A DNA stretch of 64,000 nucleotides from Oscillospiraceae bacterium (GTDB taxonomy: Bacteria > Bacillota > Clostridia > Oscillospirales > Ruminococcaceae). The notes beneath the pieces were generated by a model, which was not told the origin of the DNA, did no database searches, and saw nothing but the letters and a program-made list of their open reading frames with translations. Positions 23,477 to 30,703 of the stretch are shown here, piece by piece (position 1 is the first letter of the stretch; every line of letters begins with the position of its first letter). The stretch spans positions 1 to 64,000 of the forward strand of contig JAFXGY010000032.1 in NCBI GenBank assembly GCA_017536625.1. The letters are read 5' to 3'. A program made the position numbers and the translations under genes.

Positions 23477-26059
23477 TCAGATTTTTTTGCGCAGAAGAAT
23501 GATTACGCTTACTGCCGCAAGCCAGAACATCTGGAAGCCGAGAAGAATATACATATCAAGGCTTCTGATATTGCCGGTGAAAAGGAAGATGGTCACAAGA
23601 ATGAATCCGAGGACTATTCCTATCATTTCAATAAGTGCCGCCGCAAAAGAGGACTGTCTTATAATTCCGCAGCAGTTGAGAAGATCGGAAAGTGCGAAAA
23701 GGCTTCCGTCATAAACGGCAGCTGCAGGCGCGGTTTCTCTTTCTTCCGTAAGTTCGGCGCATTTCTGCTGATATTTGGAAGAAAGAAGGTTGAGCTGATT
23801 TTCCGGATATCCGAAAAGTTCGCTGAGCTTCTTCGTGGTGATGTTGGGGTCGCTGCAGTTGATTACAAGGCGGACTCCTCTTTCTGCCATAATTCCGAGG
23901 GAGCGGTAAACTTCTTTATCCGCATGATAGCTGAGAACAAACATGGCGGTAAGTTCGCCGCTGTTGGCAAGATAAAGGATATCCTTTCCGCTGCCGACAT
24001 ATTTATTTTCATAATCATGGGAAGGAATATCGATTCCGTGATTTATCATAAGCTCGCGGTTACCGATGAGGACTCTTTTTCCTCCGACCCATGCGGAAAG
24101 TCCCATTCCGTCCTCATAAATAATGGTATCCACCGGTTTGAGGAGTTTTTTATCGCCCTGAACAACATTGACAAAAATGCTTCCGAGGGTGCTTCTTGTG
24201 CTGCAGATAACGGATGCGGCATCAAGAATCGCTTCGTCGATTCTTCCCCTTGCGAAAGTTTTGATTCCGTGAAGGATAATGCTTCCTTCGGGGAAAAGCT
24301 GTTCGATATCAAGGAGCACGGAATCCGTTTCCGCAAAGGTTTCGGCGGTATAACCGCCTGCCATCATTCCGCCTTCTTCATTAAGAGCGGAGCAGGAGCG
24401 GAAAACAGGAAGCGCACCGGCGATGGTTGCGGAAAAAGGAGAAGCAACGCAAAGAATTGCCGCAAAGCCGGTTATGGCGTCGGAAATTCTTCCTGTAAGA
24501 AGGAATGCTATTCCGCCGACGAGAATGGAGCAGAGGAAAACAATGGGGGCTACGATTCTTGCAATACTTTCGGTGGCGTCGTCGCGATAGGAAAGTTCGA
24601 GGAATCTTGTGAAGAACTTCGCTTTTGCGCTTGTGCAAAAGCGCGGAGTTTCATCACGCTGGCCTGTAAGTTCCCTTGCAAGTTCTTTGTTGCGTACGGG
24701 AAGAAGAGCGGCTTTATCTCTTCCGTCGGTAAGGACTTCGAAGTTGTTTTTGATTCTTGCGGCGGAAAGGATTTTTCCGACTGTATTGAAGAAAAGTCCG
24801 AGAATGACAATGGGGAAGAAAAGATTTTCGCCGCCGGGGGAAATCGCGGAAGGATCCGCAATGAACGCAACGCCAAGGGCTGCGGCACCGATTACCGAGC
24901 AGGTTGCGAAGCTGTCGTTCCCTGCGCGGAAGCGCATCAGGGAAATAAGTCCGCCGCCCACCGCCACATGGCAGGTAAGCGCCGCGATGCAGACTATCGC
25001 AAGGTTGATTATCGGATAAACTATGCCGGATTTTTCAAAAGAAAACGCATCCGGAAGAGGATATCCCAGCATCGGAGAAAGGCAGAGGAAGAGGCTTCCG
25101 AGGAAGAGGATAAAAATAATCACACTTCTGATCACAAGACCCGCAAACTGGGAAGAAAGGTTTTTTTCCACCGCTTCCTTCTGGGAAATGTTCTCGTAAT
25201 CGTCCGGGTCGTCATCTTCCGGTTCGTGCATATCCTGCATAAGCTTTACAGCGATATCCTCGTTGCTCTGGTTGGAAAATCTGTTTTTCGTGGGCTGGGG
25301 AGCCGGTATTTCAGGAATATGTATTTCCTGGTCGGTGGGCTCCGCCACGTTCTTCATAAATTCCGCAACTTTATCGTTGCGTTTATCTATAAATTCCTTA
25401 TAAAGGTCGTGATTTCCGGAACTTGTGAGATCGCTTTTTTCTTTTACGGTTTTTGCGCTTCCGAATCCGTTCACCACGGCGCCATCGGAAAATTTAGTTT
25501 CCCTGGTTTTTTCTTCCGTAGGTTTTTTCGGTTCGGAAGGTTTTTCTTCCGGTTTAATTTCCTGAACCTTTTTTTCTTCCGCCGCAAGGGGTTTCTTTTC
25601 CTCATCGGCGGCTTTTTTTATGAATCCGCTGATCGGTTCGTTATCATGAATCGTAAAATCCTTCGGAACATATTCAGCGATTTTTTCTTTTTTCGTTTCG
25701 GCTTTGTTTTCGTGCGCCGGAACGGTTGTTACTTTTGAATAAGGACTTTCATCCTTCTGCTTTTTTGATTTTTTGTCGTTCTTCCAGGTGGAAGCGCCAA
25801 AATACTGCGAAAGGGTATCATCCACCTGAATAACACGGGTTGTAATGGGTTCATCCCTGAATTTTTTGGTATATGTGGGAGCTTCGGGCTCCTTCGGTTC
25901 TTCCGGCTGGGTGTTTTTTTGCCGCATCTCAAAAAAATCGCCCTTTGGTTCGGAAGAATTCTTCATGCTTTCAGATTCGGTTGTTTTTGGGGCGCCGCCT
26001 TCTTTTTTGCGCCTGATTTCCTCAAGGATATCGTCAACCGAATATCCGTTTCCTGCCAT
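23477..26059 (-). CDS. P-type-ATPase-like membrane protein lacking catalytic motifs
   Basis: An 860-residue protein with a heavy-metal (P1B) P-type ATPase layout that cannot be an ordinary pump. Residues 1-300 are a charged, low-complexity Lys/Glu/Pro region opening YSVDDILEEIRRKKE. Membrane helices follow at about 305-330, 347-370, 385-430 and 502-550. The ion-site CPC is replaced by CVASP (537-541). The phosphorylation motif DKTGT reads DIEQL: Asp584 remains, Lys and Thr do not. The nucleotide domain keeps AWVGGKRVLIGNRELM (656-671); TGD reads NCSDPN (735-739) and GDGxND is only DGSLFALSD (784-792). Two C-terminal helices finish it. Starts at ATG 26059 rather than the TTG six codons upstream. 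Third gene after PadR and rlmB. Probably a sensor, scaffold or shape-changing pseudoenzyme (inference). Confidence 0.72.
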   Translation of the reverse strand: MAGNGYSVDDILEEIRRKKEGGAPKTTESESMKNSSEPKGDFFEMRQKNTQPEEPKEPEAPTYTKKFRDEPITTRVIQVDDTLSQYFGASTWKNDKKSKKQKDESPYSKVTTVPAHENKAETKKEKIAEYVPKDFTIHDNEPISGFIKKAADEEKKPLAAEEKKVQEIKPEEKPSEPKKPTEEKTRETKFSDGAVVNGFGSAKTVKEKSDLTSSGNHDLYKEFIDKRNDKVAEFMKNVAEPTDQEIHIPEIPAPQPTKNRFSNQSNEDIAVKLMQDMHEPEDDDPDDYENISQKEAVEKNLSSQFAGLVIRSVIIFILFLGSLFLCLSPMLGYPLPDAFSFEKSGIVYPIINLAIVCIAALTCHVAVGGGLISLMRFRAGNDSFATCSVIGAAALGVAFIADPSAISPGGENLFFPIVILGLFFNTVGKILSAARIKNNFEVLTDGRDKAALLPVRNKELARELTGQRDETPRFCTSAKAKFFTRFLELSYRDDATESIARIVAPIVFLCSILVGGIAFLLTGRISDAITGFAAILCVASPFSATIAGALPVFRSCSALNEEGGMMAGGYTAETFAETDSVLLDIEQLFPEGSIILHGIKTFARGRIDEAILDAASVICSTRSTLGSIFVNVVQGDKKLLKPVDTIIYEDGMGLSAWVGGKRVLIGNRELMINHGIDIPSHDYENKYVGSGKDILYLANSGELTAMFVLSYHADKEVYRSLGIMAERGVRLVINCSDPNITTKKLSELFGYPENQLNLLSSKYQQKCAELTEERETAPAAAVYDGSLFALSDLLNCCGIIRQSSFAAALIEMIGIVLGFILVTIFLFTGNIRSLDMYILLGFQMFWLAAVSVIILLRKKI

Positions 26060-26095: not shown

Positions 26096-26884
26096 TCATC
26101 TTGCTTTTATGCCAAGCCTTTGTCTTGCGACTTCATACATCATTACAGAAGCCGCAACGGAGGCATTGAGAGATTCGATTTTTCCTCTCATCGGAAGCGA
26201 AACGACAAAATCGCATTTTTCTTTCACAAGGCGGCTTACTCCTTCGCCTTCAGCGCCGACCACAAGGCCTATTGCACCGGAAAGATCCGCGGACCAAAGG
26301 GCTTCGCCATCCATATCCGCGCCGAAGATCCAAACTCCGCGTTCCTTGAGTTCATCGATGGTTCTTGCAATATTTGTGACCCTTGCGACGGGAACATATT
26401 CCACCGCGCCGACAGAGGTTTTTGCGACAACGTAATTGAGTCCGACGCTTCTGCGCTTCGGAATAATAACGCCGTGGGCACCGCAGCATTCTGCGGTACG
26501 GATTACCGCGCCGAGGTTGTGTCCGTCCTCAAGCCCATCCGCAATGATTATGAAAGGGGGTTCTCCTCTTTCTTCCGCAAGGGCGAAGATTTCATCAACG
26601 GTGGCATATTTATGCGCCGCTGCCATTGCAAGAACACCCTGGGCATTGGCGCCGGCTGCAAGTTCTTCAATTTTTACCGGGGCAACTTCCTTGACCGGAA
26701 TTCCCGCATCCTTTGCCATGGCATAAAGCTTCCCGAGATTTGTTGCGCCTTTTGCAACCATAATCCGGTCGATTTCCCTTCCGGATTTTATTGCTTCAAT
26801 AACGGCGTTTCTTCCGCAGATTTTATCTTTATCCGCTTCGTTTTCGCGGATTTCTTCTTTTTCTCTCTCTTTATATTTATCCAT
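26096..26884 (-). CDS. rlmB: 23S rRNA 2'-O-methyltransferase, SpoU/TrmH family (RlmB-like)
   Basis: A 262-residue SPOUT-fold methyltransferase that transfers a methyl group from S-adenosylmethionine to a ribose 2'-OH, in RlmB at G2251 of 23S rRNA. Residues 1-20 are charged; the substrate-binding domain contains CGRNAVIEAIKSGREIDRI. SPOUT motif 1 is ADGLEDGHNLGAVIRTAE, motif 2 GLVVGAEGEGVSRL, motif 3 LPMRGKIESLNASVAASVM. It begins one base after the PadR stop. RlmB is the best fit for an extended-N-terminus SpoU protein, but a related tRNA methylase cannot be excluded. Confidence 0.9.
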   Translation of the reverse strand: MDKYKEREKEEIRENEADKDKICGRNAVIEAIKSGREIDRIMVAKGATNLGKLYAMAKDAGIPVKEVAPVKIEELAAGANAQGVLAMAAAHKYATVDEIFALAEERGEPPFIIIADGLEDGHNLGAVIRTAECCGAHGVIIPKRRSVGLNYVVAKTSVGAVEYVPVARVTNIARTIDELKERGVWIFGADMDGEALWSADLSGAIGLVVGAEGEGVSRLVKEKCDFVVSLPMRGKIESLNASVAASVMMYEVARQRLGIKAR

Positions 26885-26885
26885 A

Positions 26886-27221
26886 TTATTCTTCCTTCAT
26901 CAAAGTGGAGATATTCACAACTGTTTCGATCCAGTAATCGCGCAGTTGTTCGTTGATTTTTGTGCCTTTGGCGGTGCGGATATAGTATTTTCGCGGTTTT
27001 CCTTCGCTCATATCCCACTCGCTTTTGAGAAGTCCCTGGCTTTCAAGCCTCCGCAAAAGGGGATAGAGCGTGTTCCCATCCACAGGAACGCCTTTTTCGG
27101 TAAGTTCCTGACCGAGAGAATAGCCGTATTTCGGCGAGGAAAGCTGATTTAATACGCCCAGAACCACAGTTCCGCGGCGAAGTTCCGAAACAAAACCGGA
27201 AATGATTTCGTCATCGCTCAA
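26886..27221 (-). CDS. PadR-family transcriptional regulator
   Basis: A 111-residue winged-helix regulator. The pattern RRGTVVLGVLNQLSSPKYGY, then GNTLYPLLRRLESQGLLKSEW and PRKYYIRTAKG, is the PadR domain with its recognition helix and wing. PadR proteins repress stress or transporter genes in response to small molecules or damage. A TTG at 27219-27221 is the only start that fits, 9 bases after GGAGG. It is directly followed by rlmB and then the pseudo-ATPase, so the regulated target may be its own operon. Confidence 0.9.
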   Translation of the reverse strand: MSDDEIISGFVSELRRGTVVLGVLNQLSSPKYGYSLGQELTEKGVPVDGNTLYPLLRRLESQGLLKSEWDMSEGKPRKYYIRTAKGTKINEQLRDYWIETVVNISTLMKEE

Positions 27222-27669: not shown

Positions 27670-30600
27670 TTACCAGACTTTCAGCAGACGCGGAAAACGC
27701 TTCATAATAATGCCGCAAAGTTCCCTTATTTCATCCGGAATCGTGCCCATCGGACCGTTTATCGGGTCATATTTGAACATTTTTCCTTCATATCTGAAGC
27801 GGCAGTTGTTTGCTTCGCCGGTAACATAAAATCCGTCGTTTTCGCTTTTTTTGAAGTCCTCCTCATCAAGGAAAAGAGTGAACTTTTCTTTATAAGGCGC
27901 TCCGTTATAGGGACAGCTGGAAGCGCAGGCTCCGCATTCATCGCAGAAATCGTTGATGTGGATAATCTGGCGGCTACCGTCGGAAAGTTTTATTACCCAG
28001 TTTGCTCTGTTGGGGCAAACTTCCGCGCAGAATCCGCAGAAAGTATCACATTCAAGGCAGCGTTCTCCTTCGGCGCATTTTTTGCAGTCCGCGCAGAGTT
28101 TTCCGCGTTTTTCCATAAAGGAAAAATCTTCGGTTTCGTTATCCGGAACATATTTATCAAAATGGCTGTGGGCAATTTTTTTGCAGAGTTTCTGGGAATC
28201 TGCGATAACTTTCGCAATATCCTCGGTCTTTCCGAAGTTTGCATTGCCCACAAGATAGGTTGCGCTGTCCATTTCGTCAAAGAGGGCATCGTCGACTTCT
28301 TCGCCGACAGCATTTATGGCGATATCCGCCGGAACTTTATCCTTGGCGCCGGTATCAATAACAGGTCTTATTCCGGTTTTTTCATCCGGTTCACCAAGAG
28401 CGGAAACATGGCAGAGAAGCTGTCCGCCGCGGACTCCGCTTGGAATAAGATTCGGCATAATGAAGATGCCTTCCTTCTTCATGGCGGCAATTTCGTCCGC
28501 GGAAGCGGTCATTTCGCTTTCCGGTCTATCGAAAACAAGCGTTACCCTATCGACGGAGCTGAGCTTTTTGGCGCATCTTGCCGCCGCAACGGCGGAATGT
28601 CCGCCGCCGATTACAACGACATTGCCCATGATGGCTTCTTCCGTTTCTTCGGGTTTGCTTTTGTAATCCGCAAGGAAATCAAGAGCGGAGATGCTTTTTC
28701 CGAAGGCGAATTTAAGGTGTTTCTGTTTTCCCGCTCCGATGGCAAGGATTATTTTTTCGAATCCCTGTTCACGCAGTTCACGAAGGGAAGTTACCTCGAC
28801 CCCAAGCTCCATTTCGATTCCGAGAGCCTGGATAAGGGTTGCGTCCCATTCGATATCCGCATCGTCAATGCGGAATTTCGGGATATATTTGGTAACAGAA
28901 CCGCCCGGGCGATATTCTTTATCGAAGATGGTCACTTTTGCGCCCTGGCGTGCAAGGAAGCAGGCTGTGGAAAGTCCTGCAGGTCCGCAGCCGATTACCG
29001 CAGCTTTCACTCCCGCTCTGGATTTAAGTTCTGTTTCGTCAAGAAGATCAAAGCAGGCGTTTTTTGCAGCCTGATAATTTTCCTTCGGGATGCTGAGAGG
29101 GCATTCATAAAATCTTCTGGAACAGCTATCCATGCAGGGGTGGCTGCAAAGGCTTTCGACGGTGAAAGGCATCGGATTGCGTTCAAAAATAACACGGAGC
29201 GCTTCGAAGCTTCTGCCTTTTTTGATAAGGCGCATGATAAGAGGAATATCTGCACCAAGGGGGCAAACTGCGCGGCACTGGGCCTTTGTGCAGTTTATAT
29301 GGGGAATCGGGCCTTCTGCCTTTTTCGGCTCGGCGCAATCTTTGTTTTTATATCTTCCGCTGGAATAAACGTCCTTTTCGATATCCGGAAGGTCGGAAGT
29401 GAGGATTCCGGAAAACTGGGCATAGTCACATTTCGAAACATCATCCGCAAGCTGGCGGAATCTTGCAAGTCCGCCGGGACGAAGCATATCGGAAACAACG
29501 GTCACCGGCCAGATTCCCGCATTGAAAAGCTTTGATGCGGTGTAATAATCCGCACCGCCCGCAAAACAGATGCGAAGTCCGCCGCCGAAATCATTCGCGA
29601 TTTTTTCGGCAAGAGAAAACGCGATTGGGAAAAGCGCCCTTCCGGTAAGTCTTCCGTTTTTGATCGGCATTGATTTTGCGCTTTCGATCCGGAGCCCGTC
29701 GCAGACTTTTACTCCGAATTCAAGGCGGTTCATATCCGCTTTGTTCTGAAGGCGAAGGAAAGCAGGCTTGAGATCATCATAAAGCGCGCCTTTTTCCATG
29801 CGTTCCTTGCTTATTTCAATATCATCATAACCGTTTATATCAAGGATTCCGCGGATGCTGTAATATCCAAGAAGATCCGGGCTGAGCCTTACGAAGGTGT
29901 GAAGGCCTTTTTCTTCGATAAGATACGCGGCGGCTTCTTCGATTTCAGCGGCGGAAAGCCCTTCATCCGGAACAAACACCGCAGAAGAGCAAACTCTCGG
30001 GCTGATATCGGAAAGATAAGTATTATCAATGCCGTCAAGTTCATCCATATGCGCCCTTGCCCAGTTTTCGCATTCGCGCCACACGGGGGTATATTCTGCG
30101 GATTTCAGGCCTTCGATAAAGGAATTCATTTTATCGGATTTGAGGTCATCAAGACTTCCGCCCACGGACATATTGAAAACAAAGCCTTCCGGAACGCCGA
30201 GTTCGAAAGCCGTGCTGATAAGCTTTATTGCATACCATGCTTTTACATATTCACCAAAGGCTTCGCCTATGGAAAGTTCGGATGCGTTTTCGGAATAATA
30301 AGTTCTGTCGCCGATATCGGTGCTGGGTTTTGCCGCTTTTGCGGTTTCCGGGCGAACGGTTTTCAGTTCAAAAAACCTTGCACCGGAAAGATATGCGGCG
30401 ATGATTCCCTGTGCCATCTGGGTTTGGGGGCCTGCACCGGGTCCGACCGGATTTTCGATCCTCATTCCGAAAATCGGAAGTCTTGCTCTTCCGGCCTTAT
30501 AAAAATCCTTTACGCCAAAAATACTGCCGGTGGAATTATGTTCTTCAATAAGAAGTCCCATCAGCTTTTCAAAGGAAAGGGGTCTTAAATTATCCGCCAT
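27670..30600 (-). CDS. ygfK: YgfK-type iron-sulfur flavoprotein oxidoreductase
   Basis: A 976-residue soluble redox enzyme of the YgfK group (annotated in E. coli as putative selenate reductase subunit; true substrate unsettled, often linked to purine or hydantoin degradation). Residues 1-430 form a dihydropyrimidine-dehydrogenase-like barrel (NPVGPGAGPQTQMAQGI). A [4Fe-4S]-type cysteine set follows near 445 (CTKAQCRAVCPLG), then a glutamate-synthase-small-subunit-like unit with FAD site AVIGCGPAGLSTACFLARQG near 540 and NAD(P) site VVVIGGGHSAVAAARCAKK near 665, and ferredoxin-type clusters near 845 (CADCKKC..CLECDTFCGFC) and 890 (CDECGACASSCP). ATG at 30600 follows GGAGG. No selenium, molybdenum or purine gene is nearby, unlike typical ygfK loci. 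Confidence 0.88.
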   Translation of the reverse strand: MADNLRPLSFEKLMGLLIEEHNSTGSIFGVKDFYKAGRARLPIFGMRIENPVGPGAGPQTQMAQGIIAAYLSGARFFELKTVRPETAKAAKPSTDIGDRTYYSENASELSIGEAFGEYVKAWYAIKLISTAFELGVPEGFVFNMSVGGSLDDLKSDKMNSFIEGLKSAEYTPVWRECENWARAHMDELDGIDNTYLSDISPRVCSSAVFVPDEGLSAAEIEEAAAYLIEEKGLHTFVRLSPDLLGYYSIRGILDINGYDDIEISKERMEKGALYDDLKPAFLRLQNKADMNRLEFGVKVCDGLRIESAKSMPIKNGRLTGRALFPIAFSLAEKIANDFGGGLRICFAGGADYYTASKLFNAGIWPVTVVSDMLRPGGLARFRQLADDVSKCDYAQFSGILTSDLPDIEKDVYSSGRYKNKDCAEPKKAEGPIPHINCTKAQCRAVCPLGADIPLIMRLIKKGRSFEALRVIFERNPMPFTVESLCSHPCMDSCSRRFYECPLSIPKENYQAAKNACFDLLDETELKSRAGVKAAVIGCGPAGLSTACFLARQGAKVTIFDKEYRPGGSVTKYIPKFRIDDADIEWDATLIQALGIEMELGVEVTSLRELREQGFEKIILAIGAGKQKHLKFAFGKSISALDFLADYKSKPEETEEAIMGNVVVIGGGHSAVAAARCAKKLSSVDRVTLVFDRPESEMTASADEIAAMKKEGIFIMPNLIPSGVRGGQLLCHVSALGEPDEKTGIRPVIDTGAKDKVPADIAINAVGEEVDDALFDEMDSATYLVGNANFGKTEDIAKVIADSQKLCKKIAHSHFDKYVPDNETEDFSFMEKRGKLCADCKKCAEGERCLECDTFCGFCAEVCPNRANWVIKLSDGSRQIIHINDFCDECGACASSCPYNGAPYKEKFTLFLDEEDFKKSENDGFYVTGEANNCRFRYEGKMFKYDPINGPMGTIPDEIRELCGIIMKRFPRLLKVW

Positions 30601-30647
30601 AGAGCATTGCCTCCAGTAAAAATAAGAAGTCATAAAAATACATATTA

Positions 30648-30676
30648 ATTTTAACATTTTTCGGCATGGATTACAA
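30648..30676 (-). promoter_or_regulatory. Promoter of the YgfK-like gene
   Basis: Minus-strand TTGTAA (30671-30676), 17 bases, TAAAAT (30648-30653), 47 bases before the start codon. Confidence 0.6.
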
Positions 30677-30703
30677 GGCAATTTTCCTTCTTTTCGGAAA
30701 GGG

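Follow-up and report, generated by a model that had tools for sequence, protein, structure and literature searches.

P1B-type ATPases, which move heavy metals across membranes, are the closest described relatives of the protein analyzed here, and the copper exporter CopA (P1B-1; Legionella CopA, structure 3rfu) serves as the reference here. The P-type mechanism requires phosphoenzyme chemistry at its conserved catalytic motifs, and the N terminus of CopA carries metal-binding domains. The window, a stretch of 64,000 nucleotides, encodes an 860-residue protein that a preliminary description had read as a heavy-metal P-type ATPase fold with all of its catalytic motifs replaced. The features of the gene and its neighbors are collected in Table 1. 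An alternative upstream TTG start would add six residues to the protein.

Table 1. Features of the pseudo-pump locus, in window coordinates (residue numbers refer to the 860-residue protein).
Feature	Coordinates	Strand	Remarks
Pseudo-P-type-ATPase gene, 860 aa	23477..26059	-	Uninterrupted ORF, ATG at 26059
N-terminal charged tail, about residues 1-305	25145..26059	-	Judged disordered by composition; residues 271-285 pLDDT <50 in core model
N-terminal motif YSVDDILEEI, residues 6-15	26015..26044	-	
Shortened actuator-domain loop, residues 438-499, without TGE	24563..24748	-	
Place of CPC, residues 540-542, reads SPF	24434..24442	-	Alignments to 3rfu and pump profile
Place of DKTGT, residues 584-588, reads DIEQL	24296..24310	-	Alignments to 3rfu and pump profile
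Most conserved N-domain block, residues 648-684 (YEDGMGLSAWVGGKRVLIGNRELM...DYE)	24008..24118	-	109 members
Place of TGD, residues 735-737, reads CSD	23849..23857	-	Asp kept in 105/109
rlmB, 23S rRNA G2251 2'-O-methyltransferase	26096..26884	-	TIGR00186 234 bits vs cut-off 160; Pfam SpoU_methylase; directly upstream of pseudo-pump gene
PadR-like regulator	26886..27221	-	Pfam PadR

No Pfam family covers the window protein, and all of its Pfam matches have E values of 0.06 or worse, with E1-E2_ATPase at E 3 only. The NCBIfam model ATPase-IB_hvy matches residues 497-774 at E 1.7e-14 with 53.6 bits, far short of its cut-off of 346, and the copper pump structure 3rfu matches at E 6.1e-6. Among 58 members of the family, weak matches at E 0.1 or better are found to a HAD hydrolase model in 25 and to the E1-E2 model in 3; the CopA model of NCBIfam reaches E 0.001 or better with each of the 58, and the window protein scores far below the CopA cut-off. 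The family profile compared with a profile of 16 DKTGT pumps gives an hhalign value of 99.8% and E 4.7e-29 over 464 columns. In a tree made by a quick method, which gives little support to the pumps' own grouping, the family forms one clade beside the P1B pumps (SH-aLRT 100) on a stem of 1.9 changes per column. The core model predicts the overall P-type ATPase fold for the window protein, with a well-predicted membrane part. These computations show that the family shares its descent and fold with P1B-ATPases. A chance resemblance to P-type ATPases was considered and rejected on the profile-profile match and the fold comparison. The relation to heavy-metal P-type ATPases proposed in the preliminary description is thus borne out by profile search, and the domain order it gave (membrane helices, P and N domains, final helices) is retained.

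We next examined the distribution of the family. Of the order's 297 sampled genomes, 289 contain a match to a 47-member profile at E 1e-45 or better, with one match per genome apart from one genome with two. The family gene is present in 292 of the 297 sampled genomes once three others are added: G633 and G614 carry diverged, lower-scoring copies next to rlmB, and the G087 contig breaks off about 420 bases past the rlmB match, inside a frame with FSVEDILAEF close to its beginning. The other five genomes (G400, G421, G432, G455, and G550) show no full-length family match and no close rlmB orthologue, only RlmB relatives that are 23 to 31% identical. As the two genes are neighbors, a gap in the assembly or a single deletion may account for each double absence. 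The family gene is present in further genomes from the genera to which G421, G432, and G550 belong. In the genus of G400, rlmB is found in three of six genomes, all three with the family gene after rlmB at E 1e-116 or better (G925 was left out of this family-gene search). In a class sample of 291 genomes, the full-length matches among those listed belong to 12 genomes of the order, and the remaining matches in the list are confined to profile positions 219-527, a region common to real pumps. In a phylum sample of 299 genomes, the matches listed at E 1e-45 come from 3 genomes, each belonging to the order. The tally of a first 100-genome search (99/100) includes true pumps and hence is not used, and five genomes (G030, G064, G085, G087, and G092) with only a pump-like, an unlisted, or no match were left out of the first locus set. 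The named relatives (Anaerotruncus colihominis, Merdimmobilis hominis, Negativibacillus massiliensis, and Acetanaerobacterium elongatum) suggest that the order is Oscillospirales. The copy in A. colihominis DSM 17241, a culturable commensal whose genome is complete, is locus L172. The results reveal a real order-wide family for which we found no existing name, a P1B-derived pseudo-pump. Motif counts given below refer to 109 of its 163 members, which share <80% identity and include one truncated frame (L075).

Some members have irregular frames. The family gene of G082 (locus L029) contains one in-frame TGA, and the frames seen in L029 and L164 are partial; a sequencing error, a break, or recoding could lie behind these irregularities. 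In L075 (G071, contig C45), two consecutive frames, 569 and 227 residues long, make up the gene.

Among the neighbors of the family gene, none recurs as rlmB does. With adjacency allowing an overlap of up to 500 bases or a gap of up to 250 between the reading frames, rlmB lies directly upstream on the same strand in 86 of the 95 first-set loci, and three further loci (L020, L025, and L028) are also adjacent. L064 and L065, at contig edges, were not counted as adjacent; L018 and L093 have the two genes on different contigs; and L029 and L033 keep rlmB on the same strand at distances of 1095 and 631 bases because the frame is broken or partial. Among 80 named loci, some of which repeat first-set species, 68 are adjacent to rlmB, and L113 and L132 also have both genes. 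All six upstream genes tested against TIGR00186, the window's included, score above the RlmB cut-off. In the window, the PadR, rlmB, and pseudo-pump genes lie on one strand, separated by 1 and 36 bases, with prfA downstream of the pseudo-pump gene. The preliminary description had placed the gene in an operon with rlmB and PadR; strand and spacing agree with this, but PadR beside rlmB (cluster C4) is seen in 10 of 89 loci, all from the host's genus, the flanks of many other loci being too short to tell. The rlmB linkage, which that description had handled as incidental, is order-wide and is the stronger functional clue.

Two other neighbors were noted. An EF-G paralogue (NCBIfam NF009381 in both of the two tested) directly follows the family gene on the same strand in 14 loci, with its cluster C3 found for example in L034, L037, L069, and L077; it is a second translation gene beside the family gene. 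At window positions 27670-30681 (minus strand), a protein of about 1000 residues resembles the putative selenate reductase subunit YgfK, its 815.5 bits falling just under the curated cut-off of 835.3.

Because rlmB is the one neighbor that recurs throughout, a partner of the pseudo-pump would likely belong to translation or ribosome maturation. The linkage could also be a matter of operon history, with the protein being a scaffold or sensor unrelated to ribosomes. We give this explanation close to an even chance; it concerns the partner only, and its probability is not to be added to those of the other alternatives. It agrees with rlmB being a housekeeping gene, with G015 and G061, the two first-set genomes that carry the two genes on different contigs, and with G023 and G038 (75% and 86% complete), the two of that set in which a family fragment lies at a contig edge and no rlmB is found at E 1e-20. 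Against it, the other neighbors are largely reshuffled, and the next most shared cluster, that of the EF-G paralogue, reaches 16 of 89 loci, about 30 of which have short flanks.

The tail of the window protein opens MAGNGYSVDDILEEIRRKK. The preliminary description had noted a charged, disordered N terminus opening YSVDDILEEI; the charge and the motif are present, and the disorder is a judgement from composition only. Across 162 frames the tail ranges from about 86 to 637 residues (median 272), and the motif mostly stays near the start. A looser motif (hydrophobic-acidic-acidic-I/L-I/L/M) occurs in the tails of 82 of the 109 members, compared with 3.1 in shuffles. When 61 genomes are scanned at the DNA level for [FY]SxDDILxE and close variants of it, 24 genomes yield a total of 24 sites, and by position comparison all 24 fall inside family genes; the strict pattern has no match in the other 37 genomes and none outside family genes in the 61, and a reversed control pattern gives one match. 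The motif is thus neither general in the hosts nor universal in the family at that strictness. Its place near the start of a tail of variable length would fit a docking motif on a tether. We considered whether the motif is common to other host proteins and rejected this, as the other three matches in the host are internal or unlike it. As for other order-wide tail motifs, three further patterns occur in 3, 13, and 16 of the 109 members, above shuffles and not general. In a few loci (L035, L036, L038, L045, L046, L051, and L057), a VDDIL-type motif is present two or three times within the tail.

Behind the tail lie eight hydrophobic segments, counted with three adjoining pieces merged, in the order four, a short loop, two, the P and N domains, and two. 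The preliminary description had CPC replaced by CVASP; the alignments instead place CPC at SPF, so the proline of CPC remains in the window protein. Family-wide, this helix-4 proline is kept in 86 of the 109 members, Cys is found at 540 in 6 and at 542 in none, and the sole TPC string (L170) lies out of place near residue 504. In 13 same-genus pairs, the P and N domains have a median pN/pS of 0.05, close to the 0.04 of rlmB; the first membrane part gives 0.15, the last one 0.18, and the tail 0.24. These values are rough because synonymous change is near saturation. The pseudo-pump is under strong purifying selection, and this, together with the presence of a single copy in almost all genomes sampled from the order, strongly supports the claim of a maintained pseudo-pump. 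The well-predicted membrane part with its eight segments and frequent proline would also suit a passive pore or exchanger whose helices still move a solute without ATP. We regard such a function as unlikely, for conservation is weaker in the membrane parts than in the P and N domains, and Cys never occupies both CPC positions in one member.

The N domain contains the strongest conservation. Among the 109 members, G653 is kept in 108, G666 in 109, P679 in 97, R662 in 86, W657 in 84, N667 in 58, and G651 in 57. W657, R662, and P679 fall where 16 compared pumps have no consensus residue, and the His of SEHPL does not appear as a frequent residue at the corresponding alignment positions. In a correspondence drawn here, G653 and G666 align with G1101 and G1149 of ATP7B, and PMC3203118 reports signals that place these glycines near ATP and an H1069Q variant that still binds ATP with an affinity like that of the wild type. 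The similar affinity of this variant leaves ATP binding by the N domain possible. Nucleotide binding is uncertain, since the family lacks the SEHPL His and little more than half of the members retain N667. The retained N domain and platform glycine G370 could alternatively mean that the protein regulates a catalytic P-type ATPase as its partner, for instance in a heterodimer with CopA. The host encodes four P-type ATPases with DKTGT, including two P1B pumps with both CPC and DKTGT, and thus is not short of real pumps. Such a partnership seems quite improbable to us, as the recurrent neighbor is rlmB and no pump or metal regulator is found among the named neighbors.

The catalytic motifs are lost throughout the family. 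At the place of DKTGT, D584 is kept in 34 of the 109 members, K585 and G587 in none, and a new signature (D/E-L-F-P followed by LxGIK) appears instead; DKTGT itself is in place in none, one DKSG string (L039) lying out of place at about residue 672. GDGxxND is absent from all 109. TGE is in place in none, a single TGEP string (L041) at about residue 467 inside the shortened actuator loop being judged out of place, and this loop has a median of 62 residues (range 49-79) compared with about 127 in 3rfu, the alignment block before the loop being weak. The replacement of DKTGT by DIEQL, that of TGD, and the lack of GDGxxND in the window protein were correctly described, and the loss of these motifs extends to its orthologues rather than being the decay of a single copy. 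The accompanying statement that nothing is left except the phosphorylated Asp and the WVGGKRVLIGN region fails in its first half, as the Asp kept family-wide is D737 of the TGD place and not D584. From these losses and the established P-type mechanism, we conclude that phosphoenzyme chemistry has probably disappeared from the family. An enzyme that is still active with a moved nucleophile (D585 or D/E at 587) is very improbable: Asp at 585 in 32 members, Asp or Glu at 587 in 94, and D737 in 105 would allow it, but no member has K585, G587, GDGxxND, or an in-place TGE, the actuator loop is shortened, and 46 members have neither D584 nor D585. Local decay of a pump gene would account for the lost motifs and the few members with a stop or split frame, but we reject it as having next to no chance, given the order-wide presence, the open frames in most listed loci, and the strong purifying selection.

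The explanation that we consider fairly likely is an order-wide family of P1B-ATPase descendants that has lost its catalytic and metal-site motifs and is kept as non-pumping membrane proteins, with a partner for the tail, a ligand or partner for the N domain, and a link to translation. The pseudo-pump is probably kept for a non-pumping job. The eight-helix body would anchor the protein in the membrane, and the long cytosolic tail would recruit a partner, most likely one in translation or ribosome maturation, through the YSVDDILxEI motif. The constrained N domain, with its ATP-pocket glycines and conserved W, R, and P, may bind a ligand or partner and thereby set the engagement of the scaffold. 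A sensing or scaffolding role, as first proposed, is plausible; non-transport scaffolding or sensing is the most likely function, and a role in ribosome maturation is possible. In a more specific and rather doubtful version, a single recruitment event at the root of the order turned a dead pump into a nucleotide- or ligand-responsive scaffold whose tail holds RlmB or the maturing 50S subunit at the membrane, a clade-defining ribosome-biogenesis factor with no counterpart elsewhere.

Among the listed titles and abstracts of the open-licence literature, we found no P-type ATPase pseudoenzyme family, and no such protein, described, and the word "inactive" does not occur in the available part of PMC10654040. 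With a pump fold that persists in 292 of the 297 sampled genomes although its engine is gone, the proteins would constitute a P-type ATPase pseudoenzyme family. The family offers a ready test of whether a P-type fold can act as a scaffold or sensor, and it draws attention to an unannotated gene that is nearly universal in the order and has a specific candidate for its partner.

Compared with known systems, RlmB, the upstream same-strand neighbor of the family gene across the order, is by its domains a soluble rRNA methyltransferase and no relative of the pseudo-pump, and adjacency is what points to a functional link between the two. In contrast to CopA, the family has no CPC, DKTGT, GDGxxND, TGE, or SEHPL, its actuator loop is about half as long, and its N terminus is a tail of about 300 residues.
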